In this document: piece after piece, positions 3,780 to 30,823 of the stretch
How positions within the stretch are numbered: position 1 is the stretch's first letter
How the letters are laid out: the number at the start of each line of letters is the position of its first letter
NCBI GenBank assembly: GCA_002712285.1
Contig: PATC01000022.1
Span: 1 to 38,226, forward strand
Direction: 5' to 3'
Source of the DNA: Methanobacteriota archaeon
GTDB lineage: Archaea > Thermoplasmatota > Poseidoniia > Poseidoniales > Thalassarchaeaceae
Length of the DNA stretch: 38,226 bases
Made by a program: the position numbers and the translations under genes
Notes under the pieces: generated by a model
What the model was told of the DNA's origin: nothing
The model's database searches: none
The model's input: only the letters and a program-made list of their open reading frames with translations

Positions 3780-3783
3780 GAGG

Positions 3784-8602: not shown

Positions 8603-8606
8603 TCAA

Positions 8607-12621: not shown

Positions 12622-12631
12622 TACATCACCT

Positions 12632-13315
12632 CTAGTCACCAAGAGTTTCCCCCGGGAACAAGATTGGCCAAATGGCACGAAGATCAGTACCTGTCACAAC
12701 TGGTACACCTGCATCAGCGAATGCAACATATGCCTCTTCTCTAGCAGGATTGAATCCGATAAATCGCGACCCTTCAATCTGCATGGAAAGATCCATGCTG
12801 TTGTCACCAACACTCACAATCTCAGATGGATGAATACCAAGGATACGATTGAGCTTAGAGACCATATCGCCCTTATCCCATGCAGAAACTCGACAGATTC
12901 CTTCATCGAGAAGGTATCCGTCGCCGTCATACTCAAAACCATTCGCTGCCCAATCATCGACTTTTAGCATGCCAGCAATCGTTGCAACGAAAAGATCGAC
13001 CCCCGCAGAGATAATGACCACATGGATTCCTCTCTCCTTGAGTTCAGATACAACTTCTCGTGCACCATCCATGAGACGAACGCCGCTATAACAGCGGAAT
13101 AACTCATCACGATGGATACGTGATTGGACTGCCTTCCAGAGACGTATGTCTTCACGCATGAACTCCTCATCGGTCAATTCCTTGTTCAGGAACGCCTTGA
13201 GTAAATTCGGATCACCTGTACCAAAATGGCTGTGAATAACGGCCCAAGAAGAACCTGCATCAGCAAGAACACCGTCGCAATCGAAGGCGACCGCTCTGAC
13301 CTCTGGCATATCCAA
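12632..13315 (-). CDS. HAD-superfamily phosphatase (phosphoserine phosphatase-like)
   Basis: 227 aa; VAFDCDGVLAD (motif I), VVIISAG (motif II), DKGDMVSKLN (motif III), SVGDNSMDLSM (motif IV). Start is TTG 13315 or ATG 13309. Confidence 0.85.
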   Translation of the reverse strand: MDMPEVRAVAFDCDGVLADAGSSWAVIHSHFGTGDPNLLKAFLNKELTDEEFMREDIRLWKAVQSRIHRDELFRCYSGVRLMDGAREVVSELKERGIHVVIISAGVDLFVATIAGMLKVDDWAANGFEYDGDGYLLDEGICRVSAWDKGDMVSKLNRILGIHPSEIVSVGDNSMDLSMQIEGSRFIGFNPAREEAYVAFADAGVPVVTGTDLRAIWPILFPGETLGD

Positions 13316-13349: not shown

Positions 13350-13384
13350 CCGGATTGGACCGGGGGCTAAAGCCCCCGATCCGG
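13350..13384 (-). terminator. GC-rich hairpin downstream of giant surface-protein gene (candidate terminator / 3'-end element)
   Basis: CCGGAT-tggac-CGGGGGC-TAAA-GCCCCCG-ATCCGG: 7-bp perfect inner stem plus 6-bp outer stem with a 5-nt bulge. No clear U-tract follows. Confidence 0.5.
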
Positions 13385-13392
13385 GAGTCCGA

Positions 13393-13416
13393 CCGCGATA
13401 CTCAGGAGAGTCGCGG
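13393..13416 (-). other. Hairpin spanning the stop codon of the giant surface-protein gene
   Basis: CCGCGA...TCGCGG 6-bp stem with inner CTC/GAG pairing; the TGA stop (13404-13402) lies inside it. Confidence 0.5.
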
Positions 13417-16400
13417 TGGCTGAGTCGTCCCTTCGTAGGACATCAGAGGTGTTGCCACCTGACCACCTGGGACATAGGACACAGTTACAGTCACTGAGTC
13501 GAGCATGTCACCAGTAACTGGATCCTTCATCAAGATGTAGATGATATCACCAGCACCGAATCCTGTAGTGCAGTCTGCGTCAGGACCTGTGCAATCGATG
13601 CTGTCCTTGAACGTCACCATCGAATTACTATTCGACGGGAGACGGCCGTAGACACCACAGTTACCAGTAGCGTCACCCGAGTTACCCGAGTTATCAATCA
13701 ACGTTGAATCCGTTAGGCAAGTGTCTGCAGGAGCATACTTGTCAGTGAGGTTAACCAGTCGGAACTGCTGCTCTCCACTTGAGTCAAGCCACTCGAGTTG
13801 CACACGGACTGCTTGCGTTGCAAGTTCGGTCTGTGCACCGTTCACGGTGATCTTCCAAGCCCAGTTGTTCTCATCAGAGTCATCGATGCTCACATCAGTA
13901 AGGGCAGTTACGCGAGGTGCTGCCTTTCCAGAAGTGTCTGCAAGGGAACTAGACCAGACATAGATTGTTCCAGCAAGAACCACAGTGATTGCTACGAGTA
14001 GAATCGTTGCGATAACGGGGCTGACTGCCTCTTCATCTGCAGCAATGGTCTCGATTGCTAATGCTTCCTCGTCCTCTTCCCGGCGTGCCGAGATGAGGTT
14101 CAGACCAAGGAACAGACCAACAAGGCTCACAGAGAGTAGTCCTGGGAGGAACGAACTGACCGAGGACGCTTGCTTGAGTCCCACCATCTTCGGTAGGAGT
14201 GTGCCCACGTCAGTGGAGGTCATGTTGTTGTTCGCCCAGTTGAGTTCTTCTAGCGCTGGGCGCCGGAAGTTGTCAGTGACGTATTCCTCAGTGAACGGAT
14301 CGATAGTTCGGACTTCAGCGAAGGCTGCGAGTTCGTTTGTTGCTGAGTTCATCGTGATGTAACCAGTAACAAGAACTGTATCGCCGACACCTGGAACCTC
14401 TCCATCATCCCACTCTAGAGTGACCTGATGCTGGATTGCATTCGGGTTATCGTTTGCGGTGAATCGAACCTGAACATCATGCGGGTAGTTATACAACGAC
14501 GGGTCATCACCAGTGTTCGTGACTTCAACCGTGAATGGCACACGTGTGCCAGGCATAACAGCCTCGATGTTGAGGTAATCGAATCCGAAATCAGTGTTGA
14601 ACTGGTAGTCTGGACGAGCCTCGACGACGTTGTTCACGCGGATGTGGAGCGTGACGCGATCGCTTCTCTGATCATAGGTACTGTATCCCGCCTGACTGTA
14701 GTTGATGTAGTCAGGAGCCTCAGAGGTATCGTTCAGGTAAAGGTTGACAGTGCAGTAGTATCCGCTAGCTGGAACCATCTGATGGATTCCACCGTCACGG
14801 ACACCATCGCCATCAGCATCCTGTAGGAAGTCAATCTCACTGGTTGGCGCAGTAGTGGTAGCGTCAGGGATGAGTGTGATTTGCATCTCTTCTGTATCCT
14901 GATCGAGAGCGATTGTGAAGTAATGATCATAATCACAATTCGCAGTCTTAGCAACTTCCCACTGGTAATCTGCCTGCTGATGGTCGATGTCGAACATCAT
15001 GCGAGACATATCGAACGTGAGGTTGTCGACATTGGTGTCGTCCTCAGTGAGTTCGATATACCAATCTTCTGAATCACCGGCGGTGAGCTTGTCACCGTTG
15101 GCTACCTCGACGTACTTCTCTGCTTGTAGGTCTGGACCGTAGATGACTGGAGCATCGTTGATCGGGTTGACGATGAACTGGACGCTCATGTCATCTGCGT
15201 CATTCACTCCGTCAGTGAGTCCGAAGACAATGTCACAAGAACCGCCGGCTTCATTCGTTGAGTTCTCTGCGATGAGAATGCTCGTCGTTCCAGCCATGGA
15301 GATGTCGAATGGGACACAGCCATCTGCGTCAGCAGTCCAGTTGTAGATCTGCGGAACCGCATATGGGTTGTTGTCCGACTGAGAGTTTTCATTCGCCATG
15401 TCAATCACGAAGCTACCCGACTGGTTGTAGACGCTACCGAGGCTCTTAGGAACAGTGAATCCGTTCGCACCATCGATTGCTGCTTCATCACGGATATTGA
15501 TTCCGCCCTGGCCGTCGTCGGTAAGGACTAGACCACAGTCGTTGTTTGCGTAGTCATTCAGCGAATTGCAGATGATTGGCTTATCGTTGACATTGGTAAC
15601 GTTCCAGAAGAAGGTCTGGGTCGCGTTCAATCCATCAATGTCAGTCACAGTTGCCTTGAGGCGGTGACCACCGAACTGGTCGGCGAGAGTCGTTACCTCG
15701 AGAGATTGACCGTTCAGACCGTAGGAATACGGCGTGATGTATGTGTGCGTGTTCGCTGCCGAATCAACGACCTCCCATGTCAGATTGAGATCTTCCGTCT
15801 GGTAGTCCGCTGCCAACTCTGTCATACTTAGAGAAGTCATTCCAGTGTCCTCATCGACGGTCACGTCAATCAGGTTCTGGATAATCGGCTTAGCACGGAG
15901 GATATCAATCTCAACCTCTTGGTTCGTGGACATCATGACGTTCTTGCGCTCTCCCCAGTCCCAGTAGTCATTCTGAGCATCACGGACCTTGACGATAATG
16001 TCGTAAGGCCGAGCAGGAGTCGGCGTTGTCGTACCAGCATAGGTTCGGAAGATGAGTAGGAAGTCATCGAGAGTTCCATCTGCAAGATCCTCGCCTGTGA
16101 GGTCGAAGCCACCAAAGTCGTAGAAGTTCTGAGCAGTAGCGTTCAGCATATCCCATTCCTGTGGAGGGAATGCAGCAATCACGTGCCCGGTACTCTCTGC
16201 CTGAACAACAGTTAGCCACCGGACATCATCCGTTGGGGAACCGATACAGTCCCATGGGATTGCGAACTCGGAGTTCAAGTTGAACGTCGAGGTCACACCA
16301 GGGTATCCGAATCCTACGAAGGACGAGATACCGTTACACGAAGATGTGACATCAACCCAGTTACCGGTTGGAGTTACACGTTTGATTCCCCAGCTGGTTG

Positions 16401-19400
16401 CATCCTCCGCGAAGAGCATGAAGTCAGCCTGGAATGGTAGGTTGTGTGTAACATACCAATTGTCGCCAGTGGCACTTCCACCTGGAACGGTGTCTAGGTA
16501 GATCATTCCGTCAGATGCGGTGAAGGTAACACCAACAAGTCCTACGTAGAGGTTCGTAGCATCCCAAGTGATTCTCATCTCGCCACCAGAAGTGATGTTC
16601 TTGGCTACTGAACCTGGCATCATATCGTCAGCGATATTGGTCTCTGCGGTGTAGTCACCAAACCAATCAGCTAGGTCACCATCGGTCTGAATCACAGATC
16701 CAGCACGAGTGCGCCATGATGGGCTGACATACTCAGCACGAGAATGGGCCTCAAGAGGCACTTGTCCGCCAGTGAGAGTGTTGTAGTCCTCGTTAGATCG
16801 GATTGTCAGTGCCACATCAGAGGCGGGCTGGCCCATGTGGGTAACATCGAGATCTAGGAGGTTAGCTTCGTGGATGATTGCGCTGCTTGAAACACTCAAT
16901 TTGGTTGAGTCAAGCACACCATTTCCAACGCTGGTTACTGTGCTGAAAGCACCTGCATCAATCTGGACATTGGTGCTAGTCCAGGTCATGTTCTCAATCG
17001 AACCAGATGCAGTGTTGATTGTCTTCAACGTGGTGTCAGACGTACTAGTTCCTCCGTTCCATCGGAATTCCTTGTGCTTGTCAGTTAGGAGTCCAACATC
17101 ACCATCTGTGCTTAGATCTGTTAGGTCAAGGTCGTGTAGACCGCTGCTGGACGCAGAACTGATTCCAATACCATTGGTATCAGACACGTCGACAGTAGCA
17201 CCATTCACAATGATATCAACATCTTCTGCATCTACACCGTATCCATCTGCTACAATGAGCACGCCGCTACTGCTTCGTGCTTGAGATGTTCCACCAAGGT
17301 ATAGATCTCCACCCTCCATCTGGATTCCAGTTCCGAATCCGCTGATAGTAGTGTTCGAGAATGAAATGTCGTCGTTCGAACCAGCAACATTCACACCGAT
17401 GGAAGCAAGGCTTGGACCGGAACTTGTCGTTACAGTCACCGTGCCATACATGTCCGGGTGAGCACTGCAGTGATACTCATACACACCAGTCGTAGTGAAG
17501 GTGTGCGCGAAATACGAACCGTTGTTCATGAGTCCACTGTCCCAGACCGGTGAACCGGACGTGTTCTCTGTGGTACTGTGTTGGTAGTTGTTCGGATCCG
17601 AATTGTATTGAGTAGCATGCCATCGGACTGTATCACCAACTGAAATCGTGATGTTCTGCGGTGAGAATGCAGATGCACGAATCTGAACAGTGTGGACGCG
17701 AGCAGCTGCTCCACCGAGACTGGTGAATGAACTGCCTTCGTCGACGACTGTGCAGCCGTCAGTCACTAGAGCGTTAGAGATAGTCGAGACATCGTTGCCA
17801 CCCATGTTGATGGTTGAAGTCGTTCCACAGTTGTCTACATTGATCCCAACAGCGCTCGTTGGCGTTCGGCCACTGGTGAACGAAATTGTGTTGTCCATGA
17901 TGTCAACATCGTTGCTACCACGGACTCCGTAAACAGCAATACCACCGTCAGCATCAATCAATTCGTTGTCGGTGATGGTTCCATGACCACTCTGGACATA
18001 GATACCAGCGTTAGATGCGCTGCTAACACCACGAATGGTGTTCCCATCGATGTCCCACTGCTTTCCACTGCGAGAGTAAATCGGGTTCTCAGCAAGAATA
18101 TCGTTATCGACGATATCAATGGAGTTAGTCGTTGCATCCTGGATGTAGACACCATACGTTGGGATTGTAGATCCAGTGTAGGTGTTGTCCTCGATTAGGA
18201 TATCATCCGCCTTGGTGTTCAGGTATGCCCAGAAACCAAGTGATGTAGTGTCGACGAAGGTGTTACCTCTGACAATCATGTCATCGGTACCAGTTCCACT
18301 GTAGTAGGTCGAGTAAGCGTAGTAGTTGTATGGAATCATTACACCAGCCTGACAATCGTAGAACACGTTGTTCTCGATAAGAACATCGTCAATTCCTGCT
18401 GTTGAAACACAGACGTCGTTGTATTCAACTGAGCTGCCACTGGGTGGTACGCGATAGTGAGATACTGTGCTGTTCGTGAGAACGAACTCCGCAGGAGCAC
18501 CGTAGTAACCACGGCCAGAAGCCATTGTCGCAATTCCAACTAGGTCAGAGTTATTCACATTCCATCCAGCGTGATTGTAAGTTCCGGAGTTACCCAACCT
18601 GTATGCATGTGAACGGTCACCGTTATCCTCTCCAACAGAGATGACTGTGGTGTTGTCCATGTTAATCACCTGAGTGTAAGGATACTCCATTCGGATGTCA
18701 CCGACTCCGTTATATCCGCCAGTTACGAAGATTATGGAGTTGTTGAAATATGCAGGGTTAGCGCTATCCATGTAGTTGTAAGCGTGATCCATTAGGATGA
18801 CCTTGTCATTCTGCTCCCCAGCCATAGCATAGTATGCGTCGTATTGGGTGAGTGATCCTACTGTGGCTGTACTTCCATAGCCGACGTTCGAACAAGAACG
18901 CAAGTTGTTGTAAGAACTAGACGTGTATCGGTAACACACGTGGGCGTCAATCGACTCTACCATGTCTATGGTGTCAGCATTCGTTGGAACGTCTGCTAGA
19001 GTGACAGTCTCCATGATGTATCGGAAGTCACGTGAACTACTGGTATATTCATTGACATGCACGCCAGCTAGAGTCATTCCTGCGAGGTTCTTCGATTGAT
19101 GTCCAGAGTAGTCGACAGTGTATGCTGTGAACTCCATGTCTTCCGCAACACCGGTTGAACCGGTCTTGGCAGTAGCCACGAGACGCATGTCTGCATCTAG
19201 GAGCTTCAGGTTAACATCTGGTGCTGCTGATGAGTCAGCTTCCAGTGTTACGTCATAGAGACGGTTTCTGGAGAATTCTCCAGCACCATTCACATTAACG
19301 GTCTGAGAAACTGCCTGATCGGTTATCGTACCCTCGACATACGTCACGGTGCCCGCGCCGATTGTCATATCATCGGTGTTATCCTGGAAGGTTGAATCCA

Positions 19401-22400
19401 ACATGCGGACATCTCCAGATCCTGCGTGGTTCATTCCTACTGAAGAATCACGAACCATGAGGCTATCAAAGGCCCAATCAACCGAACTTGAACTCAGGAC
19501 ATTGATTCCTGAAGTTGCGGACTGAACAATTTCTCCTCCGAAGGTGAGGCCTGTAGAACCAGCTAGAACTAGACCACTTTGTGTCTGGTCATAGAGTTCC
19601 ATGTTCGTCATGGTAGTGCTGCCTGCACCGGAAGTGGTTAGGCGAACACCATACGCACCCTGTGTGACGTTGATATTATCGAATACCATGGCGTTGGAAC
19701 CATCAACGAGGATTCCTTCGTTAGCTGGTGCAGTGATGGTTACATCACTAATGCTTCCAGCCGCTCGTCCGCCACTGACTAGAATACCAGTATCTGAACC
19801 GGTAATCTGACCATTGTCAATCTGAGCAACGCCGAACTCGCGCGCCCACTGTCCCATTGTGGTGTGGTCTGTGCCTCCACGGTAGAGGAAGTCGAAACGG
19901 TCTTCGAAGTAGTTGTTCCTGTTGTGGTATACGTCGACCTTCAAGGTAACCGAATCATAGTTTGAAGCAGGGGTAGATACTGGTGGGAATTCGACTCTGA
20001 AACCAGCCGGGTTAGGGGTTCCGTAGCGGTATGCGTAATCCATACAGGAACCGTATGACCCCCACATTCCACGGTTTGAGTCAGGGGATTGAGGATACCA
20101 GCTTGGCCAGTATGCACCCCACCAGTGACGAGGGTAGTAGTTCGTGCTCTGAGTCAAACCATCTGCAGAGTTGACCCTGAATCCGAAGTTCAGAGGCGGG
20201 TTGTTGCTCGATCCGTTCGCCTGAAGTTGGGATGGACCGTAGTTAATCATGTACCAATAATACGCATACTGGTAGGAACCACCAGGGTTGTTCTTGTAGC
20301 CGTATGCGTTACAGTCCCAGTGAGGAGGCTCGCCGTAATTTGAGGCTGAGTCCGTGTTGAGGGTCATTGGGTGACCGTAAGTAATCAAATCCTCATCGGA
20401 GCCGTCATTGTCCAAGTCAGAACCTGTGCCATCATCAACATAGATGCGCAGACGATCGTAAATCATGTAGTAGTAGCTTGTACTGTATGCGTAGTAGTGA
20501 GCATTACCACCAGCGTAGACAGAGTTGAATGCCATCTGAACTACATCGTCATCGTTAGCGAAACGTGTGATATCGATTTCATGAGTTACCCATCCAGACT
20601 GACCCTGTAGGAGAGGGGAACGGTAAATGGTCGGAAGACTCATTCCACCGTAGTTCTCCATACCAACGTCATTGTTAGCAAGAGTGAAGTCATCGATGGA
20701 TGGAGCCGCGCTCTTAACTACAATTCCAGTGGCTGCGTTCTCAACAGTGATATCGTCGATATCAGTTGACGCAGAGTTCTCAATATGGAGACCTACACCG
20801 GTGTTCTGATTGTTACTGATTCGAGCATCGTCTGTAATCAAAGTACCACCGTTGACCTTGATGGTAGCCATGTCAGCATTGCTCGCAAAGGAACCGAGTG
20901 CGTAGGAATTATTCTCCATACGCATTGTAGCGCCTTCACCAATTAGTAGACCGCTCATGGTAGTGGAATCGTGCTTCATATCGCGGATGAAACTGTGATC
21001 CATGTTGAACTCACCATTCTCGATGTTCATCGTCCAACCATAGAGGCTGGAAGTGCCACGGATGTATCCGTCAACGCCGCCTGATGCGACACCACCAGTA
21101 AGAAGCAGCTTTGCTCCATTACGTAGCGTGATTGTTGGACTGTTAGTAGCCGAACTGTTCACGCTGAACTTGGTTCCATTCAGGTGCAGATTACAGTTGT
21201 CTAGAACCAGGTTCGTAGATAGTGTAATGATCTGCAGAGTGTAGAGAGCATAACTCTCGCCATTAGCACCAATGTATGAGGACGTGTTTCCAGTTCCAGA
21301 ACCATCGTCGACATTCAAGAAATTACAATCCTTGGTTGGTCCGTTCCAATCCTGTGGATAAGCCTCGAGCATGAAGTCTGCTCGTTCGCCAACCTCCAAT
21401 GGGAGATCGTGGCTCTGATCGTTGTAGTTGGTAGTATACCATACATCAGCTGGTGTTGTGATGTTCTGACCTGCGCCTCCAGCGATGCTGAATGAGTGCT
21501 CAGTGTAAGAATCAGTGACGACAGTTCCAGAGGAAGAGTACTCCAATCGATCTGTAATCAACCAAGCCTCAGCGAGGCCGTTATTGGCGCCGCCAGCAGT
21601 ACGAACAGTACCAACAACTGCAACTTCATTCACCGTGCAAGCTCCTGTTGCTGCTACATCAGGACAAGTGCCACTTGAAGTGACAACGGTTGTCGTAACT
21701 GCGTGGTCAGCAACGTAGGTGTTAGCATTGTTGATGGTTCGGTATACTCCAACAGTTGCGGTCTCACCGACGAACAATTCACCAGTAGGATGACTGACTA
21801 ATGTTGGACAAGTGTTCTGTCCCTCATATCCATTGGTCGCTGTGACACAGTCATCGGTTCCATAGGTAATGTCAATCAATCGGACACTTCCTCCAGTGTG
21901 GGACTGTCCAATGTTTACGAAGTCAGAATCAATGTCAGATACAGCGATTGTTAGAATTGTGTTCTGTGCAAATGCTGCGCCATGAGTACTACCAGAGTAA
22001 TCAAAGTCGGCTTCCGAAATTGTCACCATGTTCGACGAAGAGGATGAACCACAGTTTGAGACGACACCGGTATTGTCAGTGTCGATTACGACTGCCTTAG
22101 CCTCGACGTTCCATCCGCATCCGTAAACACCGATATGAGCTCCATCGTAGTTGTTGACGAAGACCTTGCCAGAATCAGGAGAACTGCCTGCAAAGTGCAG
22201 ACCAGGAGCTGTTCCGGTTGTGGTGAACGCGACGTTATCAATCGAAGTCGGACGAGTCCTTTCCAGATACAACTGCGATTGGCTGCTACTGGTTCCAGTG
22301 ACATCAATGTCTTGGAATACAGCATCATCACCAGTTGGCCCCATTACCGTGTTCGAACCTGCAGGAATCACCGAGATGAAGCCCTCCATGCCAGTTCCTA

Positions 22401-25400
22401 CGATATCATCCATCGTAACGGAGTCAGTCGCTTGGGTGTATACTGCACGATAATACCCCTCAAGATCGAGGTTGTACGCGTAGAACGACGAACCAGAGGT
22501 ACTGGTTGGGTCGTGATATACTGCACCGTCAGGATTCCAGTTAGTTCCTGGGCGTCCAGCATCAGTTGCCAAATCAGGGATGGTAATCGAGACGTTGCTC
22601 AACCATAGGTCATCGAAGTCGACGCTAATACCGTTAGAACGGGCATCAGTGATGGTGACGTTCTCCATAGTTAGGGAACCACCGCTGGAACCAGGGTAGT
22701 TGACAATCGCGCCACCCCAATCATTCCAGTTTGTGTTACACTCATCCATTGTACCCCATCGGAGTTCAACAATCGAATCCTCAGGTAGATCCATACAAGC
22801 ATCAGCAGCTTCGCTGATACTGAATCCAGTCATCGTGAATGATGTTCCTTGACCACTGCCGTGACTAATCGCCTTACCGACATTGGTGAAGGTCATGTTC
22901 TCCATTAGGAAGTCACCCACATTACCGTTGTAGCGTGGAGCGTTACCATGAGCACTACCCGCACTGATTGCGACTGTCATGTTCTCGAAGTTCGCGAAAG
23001 TGAACTGGTGACGGTCCTCGGTGGTGTGCGTTCCAGTGGTTGCTGTGCAACCGTTCGTGAATGCCAAACCAAGTGCGTTAGCAGAGGTTGTTCCGAGATC
23101 TGTGAAATTCACAGGAAGATCCTCGGTTCCGTTCACCCAGAGCTTGTTACAAGCCCCATTGAACAAGATACCTTTGCCCTCTGCAATCTCAATAGTAACT
23201 CCGGACTCGATAGTCAAGTCAGCGTTGACGGTAACATAGTCACCATTCGCAGGATTAACCCGAATCGGACTCATCTCAAGATCCCAGATAGTATCCTGAT
23301 TAATGTCTGCAGAGACATCAGTTCCAGCACCATCGAATGGAATCACCTTAGATCTGATTGAACATTCGTTGTTACTTGAACCGCCATAGCAGTAGTAGGA
23401 TGCATAGTAACCCCACCATGGAGCAAGGTCAACGTTACGGACATAACTTCCAGTAGATGGTAGAGCAGGCATAGTGGAGCCCCAACCGTAGTACATCATC
23501 TGTGCAGAGTTGCTAGAGGAACTGGTTGAGAACTGCATTGCGCCGTGGCGAATCGCGTGAATCTTGTGGCTGCTGTTACCGCTGTAGGTTGTTCCGAAGT
23601 ATTCGAAATCGAAGCCTGCAGGTAGATCAATGGTCGTACTGCACTGGTTTCTGTAACTGCTCCAGTAGCGTGTGCAGTAGTAGGTGTAAGGACGACCGTT
23701 GGAAGAACCTGTCAACTCCTCGTCGTAGTTAAACAACTCAGTCATGCCAACTTGGAATGCCTCGTAACCGTGGTTGTTCCCATCGGTAGCGATACGGTAG
23801 TTGTCTGTCCAGCGAGAGGCTGTGAATCCAGACTGGTATCCACTGCCTCGGCCAAGAATGTCTTCACCAAGAGCGCCATTGGGCGACTGATAACCGACCT
23901 TCTCGTAATCGTAATACATGTTACTGGAAGTATCGTAGAGGAACTCGATCTCATTCGAGACGTCGTAGAGCTTAACTTGCCAGCTACACTTGTACTGAGA
24001 ACCGAATCCACAGTTCTGGTCATGCCACTCAATTGTCATGACCTTCGTTGGCGTAACCAAATCATACGAGAATGCAGAGGTGTTCACCATGTTACCGTTG
24101 TTATCACGTGCGTGAATGGTGTATTGGACCGAGTTGCCACGGGATGTGCCCGGGATAATTGCGGACCAATCACACTCTGTCATCTCACAGCTGGTGAATC
24201 CGCCTGAAGGCGTCATCGGAACTACAGTAGCGCTAGACCATGTCGTGGAACCGTTAACTGAATCCATTGTCTGATACCTAATGAACGGCCGGTAAAGGTC
24301 GCCGTTGGAATCCTGACCTGCAGTGATATTCAATCCGGTCGGAGGATCTCCTGCGTCACTCATTGTGAACTTGATTGTTCGACCATCTTCCGTGTATGAA
24401 TCCATCAGACCAGCGTGGTCAACAACAGGCGGGAAAGTGTCAGGTGTTGGGCGGATGTTACTAGCCTTAGACACGATGTTAGGTCCACCGGCCGCATTGA
24501 ATCGGGTGTCAGTGACACCTACGTTGAATCCATTGAACTTGTAGCTCGTAGAGAACCATGTAGTGCAGTAGGCAGGGTTACCGCGAACGAAGTAGAAGTA
24601 TCCGTTCGAACCAACACAAGCCATGTTCCTAGAGGTGCTCGACCAGTAGGTCGTTCCGTTCAATGGCAAGTCACCAAAGTAACCAGTGTAATCAGGAGGC
24701 ATTACAACTCGGACATATCCGTCGTCAGTGTTACCACTAGACAGAGTTGTCTGGGTGAGGCCACCTGAAACCACCTCATCAATGCCAGTCTGAGTGCCCA
24801 AACCAAGGACACCTAGGGAAGATGTGGTCGTATCCCAGTAGTACATTAGGTTCATTCCAGGACCGTCATCGGCCGCGAAGGTGAGACCTGGGATATTGGC
24901 GGACTTTGCTGTCACACTAGCAGAGGTGGTGTATGTATTGTAGCGAGAGCCTAGATACTTCGCATTCCACTGTAGACCGCTTGTCTTGAAACAAGACGCA
25001 GAACCAGTGCCACAATTGCTGGTATCGAGTTCAATCATGTATTCACGGTTGTTCTCCCACATTGTTACCTGGTAAGTGAAGAAATTTCGGGCCTGATAGT
25101 AGAAGTAGTTGCTCTGCTCGTTAACTGCAATCTGTGTCTTGCGCTGATCATGCGGAGCATCTTCCACATCCTGTACGAAGTAATTGTACGGACTTGAAGG
25201 AGGCGTGATTGAAGCAGGCGTTCCAGTTCCGCCGGATGGCGTCGTGCCTGTATTGGGGCCATTGTTTGGACCAGTTGTAGACAAGTCACGGTATGCCCAG
25301 AAGTATTCGACATAATCGCCGAGGTTCACAGCAGGAATCTGAGCCTTGAAGTTACACTTAGATCCTGCAAGGCAGGTGCCAATCGAGGTCGCGGCTACAG

Positions 25401-27234
25401 CTGAGTATGAGCCGTTATTCACACGGTAGTGAAGTCGTGGACCTTGAGCACTAGTGGTGTCCACTCCTGAACCATCTGTCAAGCCGATGTAGAACGTACG
25501 GGCGTCCTCACGGTAGGTTGTAAGTCCAGTGTAAGGAGCAAAATCAGCAATTGGTGGGCTGGTGTCGCTACCGCCAGTGTAGCTGATTGCAATCCTTGGG
25601 AGTTCACCCGCGGCGTTACAGTATGCGTAGGTGCTTGTGCCACACATGTACCAGAATGGCTCATTTGAGTTACCATTCCTTAGACCGAGCCCGATAATGT
25701 GCCCGCTGCTACCTGCAGCATTTCCGTCAATTGCGTCCTGAATATCAGATTCGCCATTGCTGTTGAAGTCGAGTGTTCTAGAAACCATTCCGCTCCAGTA
25801 ATATCCCGGGTCGGAAAGTGTTGTAGTACTGCTTGATGCAGCACTGTTACGGATGTACCGGTTCAACAAATATCCACTACTGTAGAGGTATGAACTTGGA
25901 TCGATATGGTTTGAGGACTGGCTTGAACCGGACTTGAGAACAGTCATGGTCATTGCAGCAGAACCTGCTCTATACCGACCCATATGGACGTAGAAATCAG
26001 CGTCTTGGACAGTTGCACCAGTCGGGACTGCGTTGTTGAAGTCGAAACGGTACCAAGCATAGCGATAGTAGAAACTGTAACTGCTGCTCGTAGTGCAGGA
26101 CTGTACGGAGCGGTATCCACGGCATGTTCCGATGCTATACATGCTGTTTGTAGAGTATGCACGCTCGTATGTGGAAGACCACCATCCAGTGGTGCGATAG
26201 TAGTATGCGTATCCTGCACGCTGAGATCCCTGATTGATAGTGGGGTCAATCTGAACAGGGTAAACGCGTTCTTCGCTGAGAAGCCAATCGGTATCAACAA
26301 CAGTGGCAATCTCGATGACTTCGCCATATGAACGAATCACATAGAGGCCGAGGTGGCCATCAGGCGATTCGCCATTGAAGTTGCTCTGATCATAGATCAA
26401 AGGTCGACCAATTGTTACGAGTAGTTCACCTGTTTCGAGGTTGCGAACATCAATACTGGTGTTCGTTGTGGTCAACTTGCCACCTTCCTCAATCATGGAA
26501 TCCTCGATGAAGAGAGCATAGCCCGAAGGGATAATCATGGTCTCTTGTAGGCCGAAGTGACCTTCGAAGCCATCCGGAGCAAATGGCATGTCGCGGATGT
26601 TCAAATTCTGCTTGACGCCATCACTGGTAACCACGTAATCGATTTCGGCGTTAGTGTTCACCGGATATCGAATGACGTTAGCGCCAACAGAGATTGCCTC
26701 AGTAGCTGGCTCCTCAAGGTAAGGCATAGGGCTGAAACCCTCGCCGAAGAACCAAGCAGGCATTGGGTTGAGTCCAAAGCGAATCGGATCGATATTCTCA
26801 TCCAACTGGATAGTTACGCCATCCTGGAGGTTGTTAGCGAACTGAGTTTCAAAGGAGTTCTTTGTGACCTCCCAGCCAGTCGCAGTGGAATCGATATTCA
26901 GATCGATTTCCTCCCAAGAGCCATCTTCAAGATAGTGCATTGCACCGGCTCCTACAACAGCGAGACGTTCTCCGTCTTCACCAATGTAGGTCTTGGAGTT
27001 CTCTGTTCGGCTTCCGAGCAGCTCCTTGGCTGGATCGAATTCATCCAATCCAATCATTACGTCATTCTCAGGAAGTGCCAGCACATCCTCGGATTCATCG
27101 ACAATGTCGATCTCCTCGGCACCCGACGCCACGTCAGTGGCGGGGGCTACTGCAGCACTCCAGCTCATTCCCAACATCAGCAGCGTCAATACGAGCCAGC
27201 CGATACTTGTTGTCACATTCTTCTTTGTCATCAT
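13402..27234 (-). CDS. Giant (4610 aa) surface/adhesin-like protein: signal peptide, DNRLRE-like domain, duplicated modules, parallel beta-helix, cupredoxin, CBM9/DOMON-like, CARDB/cadherin-like stalk, TM, C-terminal archaeal pilin-like domain
   Basis: Single uninterrupted ORF; N-terminal SIGWLVLTLLMLGMSWSAAVAPA; NADLTIESGVTIEIAEGKGILFNG beta-helix entry; YEYHCSAHPDMYGTVTV copper motif; C-terminal SFLPGLLSVSLVGLFLGLNLISARREEDEE...AVSPVIATILLVAITVVLAGTIYVW. Confidence 0.93.
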   Translation of the reverse strand: MMTKKNVTTSIGWLVLTLLMLGMSWSAAVAPATDVASGAEEIDIVDESEDVLALPENDVMIGLDEFDPAKELLGSRTENSKTYIGEDGERLAVVGAGAMHYLEDGSWEEIDLNIDSTATGWEVTKNSFETQFANNLQDGVTIQLDENIDPIRFGLNPMPAWFFGEGFSPMPYLEEPATEAISVGANVIRYPVNTNAEIDYVVTSDGVKQNLNIRDMPFAPDGFEGHFGLQETMIIPSGYALFIEDSMIEEGGKLTTTNTSIDVRNLETGELLVTIGRPLIYDQSNFNGESPDGHLGLYVIRSYGEVIEIATVVDTDWLLSEERVYPVQIDPTINQGSQRAGYAYYYRTTGWWSSTYERAYSTNSMYSIGTCRGYRSVQSCTTSSSYSFYYRYAWYRFDFNNAVPTGATVQDADFYVHMGRYRAGSAAMTMTVLKSGSSQSSNHIDPSSYLYSSGYLLNRYIRNSAASSSTTTLSDPGYYWSGMVSRTLDFNSNGESDIQDAIDGNAAGSSGHIIGLGLRNGNSNEPFWYMCGTSTYAYCNAAGELPRIAISYTGGSDTSPPIADFAPYTGLTTYREDARTFYIGLTDGSGVDTTSAQGPRLHYRVNNGSYSAVAATSIGTCLAGSKCNFKAQIPAVNLGDYVEYFWAYRDLSTTGPNNGPNTGTTPSGGTGTPASITPPSSPYNYFVQDVEDAPHDQRKTQIAVNEQSNYFYYQARNFFTYQVTMWENNREYMIELDTSNCGTGSASCFKTSGLQWNAKYLGSRYNTYTTSASVTAKSANIPGLTFAADDGPGMNLMYYWDTTTSSLGVLGLGTQTGIDEVVSGGLTQTTLSSGNTDDGYVRVVMPPDYTGYFGDLPLNGTTYWSSTSRNMACVGSNGYFYFVRGNPAYCTTWFSTSYKFNGFNVGVTDTRFNAAGGPNIVSKASNIRPTPDTFPPVVDHAGLMDSYTEDGRTIKFTMSDAGDPPTGLNITAGQDSNGDLYRPFIRYQTMDSVNGSTTWSSATVVPMTPSGGFTSCEMTECDWSAIIPGTSRGNSVQYTIHARDNNGNMVNTSAFSYDLVTPTKVMTIEWHDQNCGFGSQYKCSWQVKLYDVSNEIEFLYDTSSNMYYDYEKVGYQSPNGALGEDILGRGSGYQSGFTASRWTDNYRIATDGNNHGYEAFQVGMTELFNYDEELTGSSNGRPYTYYCTRYWSSYRNQCSTTIDLPAGFDFEYFGTTYSGNSSHKIHAIRHGAMQFSTSSSSNSAQMMYYGWGSTMPALPSTGSYVRNVDLAPWWGYYASYYCYGGSSNNECSIRSKVIPFDGAGTDVSADINQDTIWDLEMSPIRVNPANGDYVTVNADLTIESGVTIEIAEGKGILFNGACNKLWVNGTEDLPVNFTDLGTTSANALGLAFTNGCTATTGTHTTEDRHQFTFANFENMTVAISAGSAHGNAPRYNGNVGDFLMENMTFTNVGKAISHGSGQGTSFTMTGFSISEAADACMDLPEDSIVELRWGTMDECNTNWNDWGGAIVNYPGSSGGSLTMENVTITDARSNGISVDFDDLWLSNVSITIPDLATDAGRPGTNWNPDGAVYHDPTSTSGSSFYAYNLDLEGYYRAVYTQATDSVTMDDIVGTGMEGFISVIPAGSNTVMGPTGDDAVFQDIDVTGTSSSQSQLYLERTRPTSIDNVAFTTTGTAPGLHFAGSSPDSGKVFVNNYDGAHIGVYGCGWNVEAKAVVIDTDNTGVVSNCGSSSSSNMVTISEADFDYSGSTHGAAFAQNTILTIAVSDIDSDFVNIGQSHTGGSVRLIDITYGTDDCVTATNGYEGQNTCPTLVSHPTGELFVGETATVGVYRTINNANTYVADHAVTTTVVTSSGTCPDVAATGACTVNEVAVVGTVRTAGGANNGLAEAWLITDRLEYSSSGTVVTDSYTEHSFSIAGGAGQNITTPADVWYTTNYNDQSHDLPLEVGERADFMLEAYPQDWNGPTKDCNFLNVDDGSGTGNTSSYIGANGESYALYTLQIITLSTNLVLDNCNLHLNGTKFSVNSSATNSPTITLRNGAKLLLTGGVASGGVDGYIRGTSSLYGWTMNIENGEFNMDHSFIRDMKHDSTTMSGLLIGEGATMRMENNSYALGSFASNADMATIKVNGGTLITDDARISNNQNTGVGLHIENSASTDIDDITVENAATGIVVKSAAPSIDDFTLANNDVGMENYGGMSLPTIYRSPLLQGQSGWVTHEIDITRFANDDDVVQMAFNSVYAGGNAHYYAYSTSYYYMIYDRLRIYVDDGTGSDLDNDGSDEDLITYGHPMTLNTDSASNYGEPPHWDCNAYGYKNNPGGSYQYAYYWYMINYGPSQLQANGSSNNPPLNFGFRVNSADGLTQSTNYYPRHWWGAYWPSWYPQSPDSNRGMWGSYGSCMDYAYRYGTPNPAGFRVEFPPVSTPASNYDSVTLKVDVYHNRNNYFEDRFDFLYRGGTDHTTMGQWAREFGVAQIDNGQITGSDTGILVSGGRAAGSISDVTITAPANEGILVDGSNAMVFDNINVTQGAYGVRLTTSGAGSTTMTNMELYDQTQSGLVLAGSTGLTFGGEIVQSATSGINVLSSSSVDWAFDSLMVRDSSVGMNHAGSGDVRMLDSTFQDNTDDMTIGAGTVTYVEGTITDQAVSQTVNVNGAGEFSRNRLYDVTLEADSSAAPDVNLKLLDADMRLVATAKTGSTGVAEDMEFTAYTVDYSGHQSKNLAGMTLAGVHVNEYTSSSRDFRYIMETVTLADVPTNADTIDMVESIDAHVCYRYTSSSYNNLRSCSNVGYGSTATVGSLTQYDAYYAMAGEQNDKVILMDHAYNYMDSANPAYFNNSIIFVTGGYNGVGDIRMEYPYTQVINMDNTTVISVGEDNGDRSHAYRLGNSGTYNHAGWNVNNSDLVGIATMASGRGYYGAPAEFVLTNSTVSHYRVPPSGSSVEYNDVCVSTAGIDDVLIENNVFYDCQAGVMIPYNYYAYSTYYSGTGTDDMIVRGNTFVDTTSLGFWAYLNTKADDILIEDNTYTGSTIPTYGVYIQDATTNSIDIVDNDILAENPIYSRSGKQWDIDGNTIRGVSSASNAGIYVQSGHGTITDNELIDADGGIAVYGVRGSNDVDIMDNTISFTSGRTPTSAVGINVDNCGTTSTINMGGNDVSTISNALVTDGCTVVDEGSSFTSLGGAAARVHTVQIRASAFSPQNITISVGDTVRWHATQYNSDPNNYQHSTTENTSGSPVWDSGLMNNGSYFAHTFTTTGVYEYHCSAHPDMYGTVTVTTSSGPSLASIGVNVAGSNDDISFSNTTISGFGTGIQMEGGDLYLGGTSQARSSSGVLIVADGYGVDAEDVDIIVNGATVDVSDTNGIGISSASSSGLHDLDLTDLSTDGDVGLLTDKHKEFRWNGGTSTSDTTLKTINTASGSIENMTWTSTNVQIDAGAFSTVTSVGNGVLDSTKLSVSSSAIIHEANLLDLDVTHMGQPASDVALTIRSNEDYNTLTGGQVPLEAHSRAEYVSPSWRTRAGSVIQTDGDLADWFGDYTAETNIADDMMPGSVAKNITSGGEMRITWDATNLYVGLVGVTFTASDGMIYLDTVPGGSATGDNWYVTHNLPFQADFMLFAEDATSWGIKRVTPTGNWVDVTSSCNGISSFVGFGYPGVTSTFNLNSEFAIPWDCIGSPTDDVRWLTVVQAESTGHVIAAFPPQEWDMLNATAQNFYDFGGFDLTGEDLADGTLDDFLLIFRTYAGTTTPTPARPYDIIVKVRDAQNDYWDWGERKNVMMSTNQEVEIDILRAKPIIQNLIDVTVDEDTGMTSLSMTELAADYQTEDLNLTWEVVDSAANTHTYITPYSYGLNGQSLEVTTLADQFGGHRLKATVTDIDGLNATQTFFWNVTNVNDKPIICNSLNDYANNDCGLVLTDDGQGGINIRDEAAIDGANGFTVPKSLGSVYNQSGSFVIDMANENSQSDNNPYAVPQIYNWTADADGCVPFDISMAGTTSILIAENSTNEAGGSCDIVFGLTDGVNDADDMSVQFIVNPINDAPVIYGPDLQAEKYVEVANGDKLTAGDSEDWYIELTEDDTNVDNLTFDMSRMMFDIDHQQADYQWEVAKTANCDYDHYFTIALDQDTEEMQITLIPDATTTAPTSEIDFLQDADGDGVRDGGIHQMVPASGYYCTVNLYLNDTSEAPDYINYSQAGYSTYDQRSDRVTLHIRVNNVVEARPDYQFNTDFGFDYLNIEAVMPGTRVPFTVEVTNTGDDPSLYNYPHDVQVRFTANDNPNAIQHQVTLEWDDGEVPGVGDTVLVTGYITMNSATNELAAFAEVRTIDPFTEEYVTDNFRRPALEELNWANNNMTSTDVGTLLPKMVGLKQASSVSSFLPGLLSVSLVGLFLGLNLISARREEDEEALAIETIAADEEAVSPVIATILLVAITVVLAGTIYVWSSSLADTSGKAAPRVTALTDVSIDDSDENNWAWKITVNGAQTELATQAVRVQLEWLDSSGEQQFRLVNLTDKYAPADTCLTDSTLIDNSGNSGDATGNCGVYGRLPSNSNSMVTFKDSIDCTGPDADCTTGFGAGDIIYILMKDPVTGDMLDSVTVTVSYVPGGQVATPLMSYEGTTQPPRLS
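13405..14028 (-). other. C-terminal archaeal type IV pilin-like segment (hydrophobic AVSPVIATILLVAITVVLAG helix plus ~180-aa globular domain) inside the giant CDS
   Basis: AVSPVIATILLVAITVVLAGTIYVWSSSLADTSGKAAP matches the archaeal pilin N-terminal (Pilin_N/DUF1628-type) pattern; same frame as the upstream 4400 aa with no intervening stop. Confidence 0.82.
16040..16700 (-). other. CBM9/DOMON-like module within giant CDS (approximate boundaries)
   Basis: QTDGDLADWFGDYTAETN...MRITWDATNLYVGLVGVTFTASDGMIYLDT...FNLNSEFAIPWDCIGSPTDDVRWLTVVQ; same pattern as the GH57 N-terminus. Confidence 0.6.
17427..17697 (-). other. Cupredoxin (type 1 blue copper) domain within giant CDS
   Basis: VHTVQIRASAFSPQNITISVGDTVRWHATQYNSDPNNYQHSTTEN...YFAHTFTTTGVYEYHCSAHPDMYGTVTV: His plus C-x2-H-x2-M copper ligand pattern. 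Confidence 0.85.
23400..25565 (-). repeat. Two tandem copies of a ~350-aa module within giant CDS (approximate boundaries ~24440-25565 and ~23400-24440)
   Basis: Copy 1 begins DTSPPIADFAPYTGLTTYREDARTFYIGLTD...CNFKAQIPAVNLGDYVEYFWAYRD; copy 2 begins DTFPPVVDHAGLMDSYTEDGRTIKFTMSD...CDWSAIIPGTSRGNSVQYTIHARD. Both continue into Cys-containing YDxx/ELDTS..FLYDTS and GYFGDLPLNGTTY / FDFEYFGTTYSGN segments. Confidence 0.65.
25570..26250 (-). other. DNRLRE-like domain within giant CDS
   Basis: PTINQGSQRAGYAYYYR...WYRFDFNNAVPTGATVQDADFYVHMGRYRAGSAAMTMTVLKS...SRTLDFNSNGESDIQDAIDG...GLGLRN...PRIAISYTGG, typical of DNRLRE modules. Confidence 0.55.
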
Positions 27235-27588: not shown

Positions 27589-27607
27589 TGATTGGTTAGA
27601 CCAATCA
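27589..27607 (-). other. Hairpin containing the stop codon of the 1072-aa surface-protein gene
   Basis: Reverse strand TGATTGG-TCTAA-CCAATCA: perfect 7-bp stem, 5-nt loop; the leading TGA is the stop codon. Confidence 0.55.
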
Positions 27608-30600
27608 GTAGTCGAATTCGTCGTCGCCGCCGCCGCCGCCACCGCGAGTCAAGATGACCGCGCCAACGATAACTGCAATTACAACAACACCGACAATCGC
27701 CATGATTGCGTTCTGAGAAATGCCGCTCTCAACTTCCTCAGTTTGCTCACCAGGAGTAGTTCCTGGGTCGACTACAGTCTCAGAGAGGTCTACCTTAGCC
27801 TGTGCTGCGTCGGAACCCATGTTGTTGTTCGCATCGACACCTGCTGCAGCGAAGAAGTACTCACCAGCACAGGTGCCAGCACATACGTCCTGCTTGGATA
27901 GAGTGACGGAAGTGGATGCATCCGTCATCTCCTGACAGGATAGACCATCGAAATCAGATGCTGCGAAGTCGAAACCAACCGACCAGCAAACCATCCAATG
28001 ATCTACATCATCGACGTTCTCAGCATTCCAGTTCAATGTGATATCAGTAGCTGACACTGTTGCCGTCATACCAGATACAGTTGGGGCAGGATCGACCTGC
28101 CCGTCTGCAGTAATTGATGCATGGGAACAGATGGTAGAGTTCGAGCCAACGCCATTAACGACGCGGACATCGAACTTGTATGCCTGAGAGTGAACACCGA
28201 CGAACGTATGTGATGTGGAACTGACATTCAGGGTTTGCTTGACGTCATCATCCACGAGGAACTCGATGCGATCTTCGTTAGTATCCAACAATGCACTGTC
28301 AACATAGTCCCAACTGACAACGATTTCGCCGGCTGCACCACGTGTAACACCATTACAGTCAACACCAGTCGCCGGAGGTTCGTCCGTGCTGGAAGCAATG
28401 AACACAGCGTAGGTAGTATCCTTGAGATTAGGGATATCACCTGGCTGACTCCAACTGAGAGTTACTCCGCCGGCGTCATTAGCTGTCTTCAGAGTCGACA
28501 TTGACGTCCAACCGGTACTACCTTGGAACCAAAGTGAGTAATCGTTGTTGATGTCGCCTGCGAAAGAGACCACTAGGGACTCAGGGCCAACATCGACAGG
28601 GGTGAACGTGTAGTATGACATTTGGGTGCCACTAGGATCATTTCCAGGACCTACGTTGAATGCAACAACAGAGTCATAACTTGCAGTCATTCCAAGGTCA
28701 GCGCCGGTGATAGCATCTGCATTGGTGATGGTAACATTGGTACCGACTGCGGTATTGTAGGTGAGAGAATAGTTTGCAGTCCATGCTGCATCACCCTCGC
28801 CACCAGAATATTCCTGAGGACCGAAGCGATTCCAAACGTTGATCTGCTGGATATCTTCGCCACATGCGCCGAATTCATCGCAAACAATCAACTTGACAGA
28901 GTTGCCGCCAATCCACATGAAGTCAGTGAAGTCGAGGTTACACATTGTCATCCCAACTCCTTCCATGCATGTGTCTATGTCTACTTCTGCGCGAGTACCT
29001 CCAGAGAGTTGCCATGCATAACTGAGCATAGATGGATCTTCGGTCTCAGAATCAGAAGCGCGAGCTTCAAAGAACAGAGGGTCACCCACAACAGGCGGAT
29101 CGTTCAAGAGATCACCTAAGCGGATGTCTACATTAGGAATATCGTTGATACCTTCAATCTGGGTAGCACGCTGGTTATCGGATGCCGTCAACTCTGAAAG
29201 AGATGGCTCGAGGAAGTTAGCTATAGCACGAATAGTGTGGTCACCTGGTGTGATGAATACCTGCATACATGCGATACCTTCCATCGTGGCTCCTTCCATA
29301 CCAGAGTCGTCAACACCCAAGAGCTTGTGAGAGTAAGCCTCCTCACCCTCCATCATTGTGCATTCATCTGCCCAATACTCCATCATGTTGCCATCAGGCC
29401 CTGTGACCTGGAAAGTAACGTTCCAGTCGTAAGTATTAGTCTGGTCAGAACCATCGTGTAGAACTGATGCCTTGAGCCATTGTTGGCCTACGTTAAGGAC
29501 GCCGCCAAACACACCGTCATCACCTAGAGTGAGGCTCTGCATGCGAATATTGTGGAAGACACCGAAAGTTCCAGTAATGGATCCGAAGTTATTTCCAGCG
29601 CGGTCGTCAATCTCAGATACGGACTCATAATTGACGAGAGTCGAACCCTGAGTATCATTAGTGGACTCATCAAGAGCCTCGCCTGTGTAAATCGTGTGGC
29701 CACCGAATTCGACGGACACACTGAACGCAGCGAATCCAGAGGTGGAGGCTGTATCAGGAACCATGTATCCATCAATAGAGAATACCTGATCAGCATCAAT
29801 CAACATACGAGTTTGGAGACAGGGGTTATCATTAGCAACACACGGGTTAGGGTGGGCTCCATTGTCAGAGGTTTGCTCAATGTCAGAGACATTGTGCCAG
29901 ACCTCAACTCCAGTGGTACTGTTACCGAGAATGTATTCAGGACTTTGGCCTTGGAAAGAGTCGATTGTGGCTTGGCTTCCAGGGTTCTGGGGGTCATCGA
30001 CTGTGGACATCTGTCCATCGAAAGAACCTGTGAAGGAGACACTCATCTTGGCCTCACGAGCCTGCCAGTCATCGATACTGCTGTGTGCAGAGATAGAAAC
30101 TCGGAATGGGGCCGCGTTTCCTGCGGAAACAGCCTGTGTTCTAGCAGCCTGCTCATCAGAGAAACAATCGTTACCGTCAAGCCAGCAGATGGATACACCG
30201 ATATCACTCCAGTCAACAACTGTGACATCGAATTCCATCTGGTTGTTAGTTAGATCAGTATCCTGACTAGTGGTATCCTCTAGCGTAACGCGGACACGGT
30301 AAGTTCCTGCGTTTGAGGGAGTCCAAACAAGGTCATCGCAAGGTGTCTGACCATCGCAACCACCCTCACGGACAGTGTATGCTCCGTTAGCGAGATAATC
30401 GCCTGCAGATAGGTTGTCATAAGCTGCACCGAATTGAGTCAGGCCAATGGCTTCGTCGCCGCCAGACCCTTGATCAGTACCAGCAATTCGAATCGGATTA
30501 GCCCCGTCGGCGTTAGCAATAACATCAACCTGAACATTCAGATTCTCAATCAGCACATCGCCATCATTGAGAATCACTAGTACGAATTTTACGTCTGTAC

Positions 30601-30823
30601 CAGCCTCAATCTGGTTGCGAGCATCGCCGGAAAATGCATCAATGTAAGTCTCACGCGGAGACGTAACATCGTGGAGTTTTACCTCATATGTTCCTTGGCG
30701 GCCGGCTTCAGCTGGCGCGCTCTCTTCATTCAGTTCTTCAGGCACGATGTATAGCAGCGTGCTTGCAATCATTAGTGCAATCATCATCAACGATAGCGTC
30801 TTCTTCATGGTCATGACCCCCAT
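27605..30823 (-). CDS. Secreted surface protein with CARDB/FN3-like domains, C-terminal TM and GGGGGG-DDEFDY tail
   Basis: 1072 aa; MKKTLSLMMIALMIASTLLYIVPEE signal; NQIEAGTDVKFVLVILNDGDVLIENLNVQVDV (CARDB-like); TVSGMTATVSATDITLNWNAENVDDVDHWMVCW (FN3-like); TM QNAIMAIVGVVVIAVIVGAVILTRGGGGGGDDEFDY*. Confidence 0.88.
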   Translation of the reverse strand: MGVMTMKKTLSLMMIALMIASTLLYIVPEELNEESAPAEAGRQGTYEVKLHDVTSPRETYIDAFSGDARNQIEAGTDVKFVLVILNDGDVLIENLNVQVDVIANADGANPIRIAGTDQGSGGDEAIGLTQFGAAYDNLSAGDYLANGAYTVREGGCDGQTPCDDLVWTPSNAGTYRVRVTLEDTTSQDTDLTNNQMEFDVTVVDWSDIGVSICWLDGNDCFSDEQAARTQAVSAGNAAPFRVSISAHSSIDDWQAREAKMSVSFTGSFDGQMSTVDDPQNPGSQATIDSFQGQSPEYILGNSTTGVEVWHNVSDIEQTSDNGAHPNPCVANDNPCLQTRMLIDADQVFSIDGYMVPDTASTSGFAAFSVSVEFGGHTIYTGEALDESTNDTQGSTLVNYESVSEIDDRAGNNFGSITGTFGVFHNIRMQSLTLGDDGVFGGVLNVGQQWLKASVLHDGSDQTNTYDWNVTFQVTGPDGNMMEYWADECTMMEGEEAYSHKLLGVDDSGMEGATMEGIACMQVFITPGDHTIRAIANFLEPSLSELTASDNQRATQIEGINDIPNVDIRLGDLLNDPPVVGDPLFFEARASDSETEDPSMLSYAWQLSGGTRAEVDIDTCMEGVGMTMCNLDFTDFMWIGGNSVKLIVCDEFGACGEDIQQINVWNRFGPQEYSGGEGDAAWTANYSLTYNTAVGTNVTITNADAITGADLGMTASYDSVVAFNVGPGNDPSGTQMSYYTFTPVDVGPESLVVSFAGDINNDYSLWFQGSTGWTSMSTLKTANDAGGVTLSWSQPGDIPNLKDTTYAVFIASSTDEPPATGVDCNGVTRGAAGEIVVSWDYVDSALLDTNEDRIEFLVDDDVKQTLNVSSTSHTFVGVHSQAYKFDVRVVNGVGSNSTICSHASITADGQVDPAPTVSGMTATVSATDITLNWNAENVDDVDHWMVCWSVGFDFAASDFDGLSCQEMTDASTSVTLSKQDVCAGTCAGEYFFAAAGVDANNNMGSDAAQAKVDLSETVVDPGTTPGEQTEEVESGISQNAIMAIVGVVVIAVIVGAVILTRGGGGGGDDEFDY

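Follow-up and report, generated by a model that had tools for sequence, protein, structure and literature searches.

The stretch of DNA analysed here (the window) is the entire 38,226-base contig (G000:C24) of a fragmented genome that is 74% complete, from Ca. Poseidoniales, which are abundant, uncultured archaea of the ocean. On its minus strand lies an open reading frame (27234..13402) that runs from ATG to TGA over 4610 amino acids without internal stops in the translation of the window. The encoded protein, hereafter the giant, consists in this order of a signal peptide, an ectodomain of ~4,330 aa, a transmembrane helix (TM1), an acidic loop of 19 aa, a pilin helix and a beta head. An initial annotation had recognized a transmembrane anchor followed in frame by a complete pilin-like domain at 13402-14160. 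The reading frame proved intact and the domain is matched by pilin profiles above their cut-offs; its strand needs correcting to minus, as the plus-strand translation of this interval contains stops. The genes and features are listed below.

13402..27234, minus strand: giant fusion protein, uninterrupted ORF, with orthologues of ~4,500-5,500 aa in both Poseidoniales families
27145..27234, minus strand: N-terminal Sec-type signal peptide (MMTKKN..IGWLVLTLLMLGMSWSAAV), the first hydrophobic segment, its position conserved in 10 relatives
17431..17685, minus strand: plastocyanin/azurin-like domain, aa 3184-3268 (PF00127, 31.4 bits, cut-off 21.2)
14215..14637, minus strand: last beta-sandwich domain of the ectodomain, aa 4200-4340 (AF2 beta strands, pLDDT mostly 80-90; paralogue alignment)
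14083..14151, minus strand: TM1, aa 4362-4384, predicted to run out-to-in, with RR after it (hydropathy; helix 171-201 of the AF2 model)
14029..14085, minus strand: loop RREEDEEALAIETIAADEE, aa 4384-4402, predicted cytoplasmic, in the place of a prepilin leader
14026..14028, minus strand: Ala4403, predicted -1 residue of a prepilin-peptidase site (A/VSPV, the slash marking the cut), invariant in all relatives
13405..14028, minus strand: type IV pilin module, aa 4403-4610, N-terminal helix and beta head (PF07790, TIGR02537; AF2)
27605..30823, minus strand: 1072-aa secreted protein with a C-terminal TM (p1072), directly upstream of the giant, conserved neighbour
12632..13315, minus strand: HAD-type phosphatase-like gene, directly downstream of the giant, conserved neighbour (tblastn)

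Directly past the stop codon of the giant, a GC-rich inverted repeat (CGGGGGCTTTAGCCCCCG) was spotted by eye at 13350-13385 and is a possible terminator. Also adjoining the giant, at 2145-12678, are glycogen phosphorylase/4-alpha-glucanotransferase-like genes, an alpha-amylase with an AMPK-type CBM and a sugar ABC transporter set, for parts of which roughly one relative in four has homologues close to the giant.

Hydropathy over the entire giant gives three hydrophobic segments, which are exactly the signal peptide, TM1 and the pilin helix, and the same is observed in 10 full-length relatives. At the junction, TM1 (SSFLPGLLSVSLVGLFLGLNLISA) leads through the loop into AVSPVIATILLVAITVVLAGTIYVWSSSLAD and ~180 further residues; the pilin module opens with AVSPVIATILLVAIT and has its beta head behind. 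The ectodomain is less easily classified. Its plastocyanin-like domain is the sole one above a curated cut-off, and besides it the Pfam and NCBIfam scans returned weak matches to Big_9/tandem-95 repeats (Ig-like). The alignment to several Poseidoniaceae giants is broken at aa ~3101-3280, around the plastocyanin-like domain, which thus looks like a lineage-specific insertion. A putative adhesin role is assumed from size, secretion and composition, and we keep the word putative because the ectodomain scans gave these matches only. No Pfam match to the PilY1 beta-propeller was obtained in whole-protein or fragment scans of the giant.

The search with archaeal Pilin_N profiles that the initial annotation had proposed gave a clear answer. 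Pilin_N (PF07790) matches at 35.7 bits (cut-off 25.2) and the archaellin/pilin N-terminal domain TIGR02537 at 44.4 bits (cut-off 20), both spanning aa ~4400-4466. The candidate explanation of a chance pilin-like TM segment was rejected on these above-cut-off profiles and on the invariance of the helix. A first structure search with a 418-aa two-domain model had returned low TM-scores and mixed beta-sandwich matches only, and the pilin module was therefore folded alone. The resulting AF2 model (pLDDT 76, pTM 0.68) consists of a helix at residues 4-28 and a beta head, and its best PDB match, the sole one under E=0.001, is the filament of Cuniculiplasma divulgatum (E=3.4e-4), a Thermoplasmatales archaeon. 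The next matches are the archaella of M. villosus and H. salinarum and the FlaF soluble domain (4zbh/4p94). TM-scores against the PDB matches are low (0.26-0.39 by query length), so that the model supports a pilin fold and leaves the subfamily unproven. The mature chains of two solved archaeal filaments (8rey, 5kyh) start at the equivalent of Val4404.

What defines a type IV pilin is a class III signal at its N-terminus. The module has, in its model, the long hydrophobic helix and beta-rich head of a pilin, and its -1 residue is Ala, one of the three residues (G/A/S) looked for there; the class III signal is absent from the precursor N-terminus, as the module begins at aa 4403 behind the signal peptide, the ectodomain and TM1. 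As this feature of pilin precursors is lacking, neither 'ordinary pilin' nor 'canonical modular pilin' is a fitting name for the giant.

The fusion is real and conserved. Of 176 class genomes with a completeness of 80% or more, 101 carry it in frame when a match to the junction profile at E<=1e-40 is taken as the criterion, and both Poseidoniales families (Thalassarchaeaceae and Poseidoniaceae) are represented among them. By manual count, 53 of these 101 genomes have frames of more than 4,400 aa, and 21 ORFs in a 60-genome set carry the N-terminal region and the pilin on a single frame. The frame through TM1, loop and pilin is uninterrupted at all 80 loci that were read out. Identity is 73-90% within the same genus and ~50% over the junction in the second family. 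Three genomes (G040, G398, G355) carry the C-terminal junction of the giant twice. Outside the Poseidoniales, a phylum scan gave matches covering the pilin region only, in short frames among those listed. The initial annotation had asked whether related genomes share the fusion, and had named a frameshift or homologues encoded as separate genes as evidence against it. Genome comparison found neither: no orthologue with the pilin part as its own gene occurs among the class-wide junction-profile matches, and the two matches without TM1 are both at contig ends (G409:C57, G290:C104). A sequencing or assembly artefact that fused two genes might be suspected, given that the window is the full contig of a fragmented and incomplete genome. 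We dismiss it, and its probability is negligible, because genomes that are independent of one another share the same junction across two families, one of them (G036, 2.06 Mb) being a single contig with the fusion ORF, and because every giant fully read has the same three hydrophobic segments.

Sequence constraint is unevenly distributed over the junction. In an alignment of 54 sequences, invariant columns amount to 19 of 27 in the pilin helix, 4 of 23 in TM1 and 0 of 16 in the loop, and a near-invariant helix exceeds what a mere membrane anchor needs. The helix of the giant is identical to those of stand-alone pilins at 27 of 31 positions on average for type A and at 18 of 31 for type B. The relatives provide 73 distinct loops, with a length of 16-21 aa wherever both ends were readable. 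The residue six before Ala is M, L, I or F in all 73, D stands three before it in 67, and D or E two before it in 71. The -2 residue, directly before Ala, is E in the window and is charged in 18 of 71 distinct relatives, being mostly A, M, Q or T; in stand-alone type A pilins it is E or Q. These patterns also bear on whether the pilin could be translated separately from a start codon within the loop, the fusion being incidental. ATG is indeed found six codons before Ala in 27 of the 73 distinct loops, where several type B stand-alone pilins begin. Yet the window has no ATG, GTG or TTG between TM1 and AVSPV, just as the initial annotation had stated when it judged separate initiation unlikely, and the position that is hydrophobic in every loop is encoded by ATG or TTG in just 29. 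A Shine-Dalgarno-like motif precedes 6 of the 27 loop ATGs, against 21 of 26 stand-alone pilin starts. A residue that is always hydrophobic, often without a start codon and seldom with such a motif points to constraint at the protein level and makes internal initiation very improbable.

The presence of the giant follows that of the filament machinery. In seventeen relatives, spread over seven genera of the family to which the window belongs, there is no match to Pilin_N, to the C-terminal query or to the N-terminal 337 aa of the giant, and no homologue of p1072. A further, very fragmented genome (G020) has no Pilin_N match and holds a piece of the C-terminus of the giant. The remaining 41 relatives carry Pilin_N, and 40 of them, as well as the window's own genome (G000:C42), have a homologue of prepilin peptidase. 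This homologue is divergent. Its identity rests on two sub-cut-off Pfam matches, to Peptidase_A24 (PF01478) and Arc_PepC_II (PF06847), on a weak FlaK_Arch match and on the motifs AAWLDxKERRVPN and HGGADxK, and its alignment against the sequences of solved structures gave no match. T2SSF platform genes are typically present in 4 or 5 copies in the pilin-bearing genomes and in 0 or 1 in the rest, and the window's genome has five matches. Thus both a peptidase homologue, below the Pfam cut-offs, and the platform protein that the initial annotation had suggested looking for are encoded in the same genome. As for the neighbouring genes, a p1072 homologue lies at the same place in nine of ten long loci read, p1072 itself having no Pfam or NCBIfam match, and the HAD-type gene is found near the giant by tblastn at 90 of 90 loci of the order. 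Across these relatives, then, the filament machinery, p1072 and the giant are retained or lost as a set. Rinke et al. (PMC6461757) describe a 'flagella operon' that every Poseidoniaceae genus and half of the Thalassarchaeaceae genera possess, and propose a role in adhesion or attachment; the distribution of the giant and its machinery matches the one given there. Five genomes of genera g6 and g7 (G014, G015, G024, G034, G035) have no Pilin_N match, a diverged peptidase homologue and one T2SSF gene, and perhaps hold a reduced filament system with unrecognized pilins. Frames of ~360 aa in Poseidoniaceae (G036:C1:1428798-1428878 and equivalents) give weak, mostly sub-cut-off Pilin_N matches, possibly belonging to another large pilin-like protein.

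A natural counterpart of the giant is provided by three hairpin-less paralogues from three Poseidoniaceae genera, L195 (G044:C120), L196 (G042:C26) and L197 (G270:C31). They are secreted proteins of 450-700 aa in which the last ectodomain domain of the giant is fused straight onto the pilin beta head, exactly TM1, the loop and the pilin helix being absent (IPQVVDIIVPEPVGEDGIPRFTFEFDD vs LPxVVRTIGA[..]KGVPRVTFDIED). When a paralogue is the query, its alignment to the giants falls into two blocks (roughly 1-128 and 149-284), with the hairpin between them. L195 and L197 have an extra hydrophobic segment close to the C-terminus. Since the paralogues are contiguous without the hairpin, both extracellular domains can form a single continuous unit, which suggests that they may pack together in the giant as well.

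We propose that the giant probably works as an inverted modular pilin. The ectodomain would be exported via Sec and would halt at TM1, leaving the loop in the cytoplasm, from where the pilin helix would re-enter the membrane in-to-out, as an ordinary prepilin does. TM1 would here take over the job of a basic leader in setting topology; because it ends in RR and returns the chain to the cytoplasm, the acidic loop can serve as a leader without more basic residues. The argument of the initial annotation that the internal leader is cytoplasmic if TM1 runs out-to-in still holds, while the acidity of this leader now seems less odd than it did, as TM1 fixes an N-in topology and stand-alone pilins are acidic near the site too (MKNENRNEE/A). 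In ordinary prepilins the leader stays cytoplasmic, where the peptidase cuts, and its topology obeys the positive-inside rule (PMC10191384); archaeal peptidases require G, A or S at -1, and a charged -2 residue is reported to be critical (PMC4371748). By analogy, the leader position and cytoplasmic site of the giant would correspond to theirs, and its class III site (..DEEA/VSPV) would be positioned on the peptidase's side of the membrane. Prepilin peptidase would then cut there and free the N-terminus of the pilin (predicted neo-N-terminus VSPVIATILLVAITV...). Judging from the residues around the site, such cleavage is likely and not certain, since Ala is invariant but the -2 residue is charged in a minority of relatives. 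The freed helix would pack with stand-alone pilins in a type IV filament or at the filament base, and the beta head would remain paired with the last ectodomain domain. After the cut TM1 would still hold the giant in the membrane, so that display on a filament would need a non-covalent link, which the paralogues alone suggest. The outcome would be a putative adhesin of ~490 kDa that an archaeal type IV pilus carries or has at its foot, with the 1:1 ratio fixed. The parts of this explanation differ in strength. The pilin module probably works with type IV filament machinery; the explanation taken as a whole is evenly balanced; and a lasting association of giant and pilin after cleavage falls slightly short of an even chance. 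That the internal site behind a TM is cut throughout the piliated lineages of this order, a dominant one among marine archaea, giving a two-chain surface machine of 0.5 MDa in which adhesin and filament subunit remain paired, is a somewhat more tentative extension.

The main rival is an uncleaved hairpin anchor, in which TM1 and the pilin module stay connected and the helix docks on filament bases or machinery, in a role comparable to that of ArlF/ArlG. It would account for the uncharged -2 residue of most relatives and would fit the similarity of the pilin head to the FlaF (ArlF) structures 4zbh/4p94; moreover, pilin-derived ArlF is reportedly secreted full-length (PMC8667602), and the hairpin-less paralogues show the two heads as a single unit without cleavage. 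Against this, the pilin helix and the Ala at -1 are more constant than an anchor requires, a peptidase homologue is present with the site on its side of the membrane, and a helix with an uncut loop on its N-terminus would presumably be difficult to accommodate in a filament core. We therefore regard the uncleaved anchor as rather unlikely, although it deserves more weight than a simple polyprotein, in which the cut releases a minor pilin, the TM1-anchored giant acts apart and the fusion serves only stoichiometry or co-insertion. Topology and site are compatible with such a polyprotein, and TM1 followed by RR resembles an ordinary C-terminal anchor. However, the two parts are unsplit in ~100 genomes of two families, though their separation would be easy in evolution, and the paralogues hold both head domains together even after loss of the hairpin, which makes this reading improbable. 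The initial annotation had left the choice between a polyprotein and a pilus-tethered giant; the conserved fusion it relied on stands under both, and the acidic leader is less of an oddity than it had held.

The inverted arrangement has several consequences. With its class III element internal and behind a TM helix, the giant allows one to ask if topology, and not position, is what prepilin peptidase recognizes. The uncut loop-pilin site would read ...IAADEEAVSPV... across the junction. If the site is cut, a class III signal can function away from the N-terminus, with a TM helix standing in for its leader. The conserved fusion also presents an alternative route for joining cargo to a filament subunit, ahead of the pilin and not behind it. 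For Poseidoniales, the giant is moreover a definite candidate for attachment to particles or cells, lost along with the pilins. Pilin predictors limited to protein N-termini would miss its internal module.

A giant pilin-fused protein is not mentioned in the searched passages of Rinke et al. (PMC6461757), and our literature search of open-licence papers gave no report of pilin-giant fusions or internal class III sites. In that literature we found no earlier description of a single gene that encodes a putative filament subunit along with a very large putative adhesin. Large modular adhesins shown by pilins are likewise known in the PilC/PilY1 tip adhesins, of which PilY1 has a gene of its own and bears a beta-propeller (IPR008707) at the C-terminus. 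The archaellum stators ArlF/ArlG (FlaF/FlaG) are pilin/archaellin-derived anchors, and the beta head of ArlF is among the best fold matches to the module. They are small, begin with the helix, are encoded in the archaellar operon and have neither a giant ectodomain nor a hairpin, and the giant differs in all of these respects, with its 4610 aa and with p1072, the HAD-type gene and sugar-transport genes as neighbours. The stand-alone Pilin_N pilins of the same archaea, as well as the Cuniculiplasma CdiPB (8rey), share the helix type and head type of the giant. Unlike it, they are made as short precursors, whose leaders are N-terminal and mostly include K/R, and they have no upstream ectodomain. 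A close parallel is with the modular type IV pilins, namely S. sanguinis PilB/PilC and more than 1,200 InterPro proteins, in which a non-pilin and often adhesive module is fused to a pilin module for display on the filament (PMC8179133). The giant resembles them in that modules not specific to pili, the plastocyanin-like domain and the weakly matched Big_9/tandem-95 repeats, are fused to a pilin. In modular pilins the pilin and its class III signal are N-terminal and the cargo comes after, whereas in the giant the cargo of ~4,330 aa comes first, a TM lies between and the site is internal. The most extreme multi-domain modular pilin given in the same work has 860 residues (PMC8179133), and the giant is more than five times larger with its module order reversed. 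The fusion is conserved, ordered and unexplained by known architectures.
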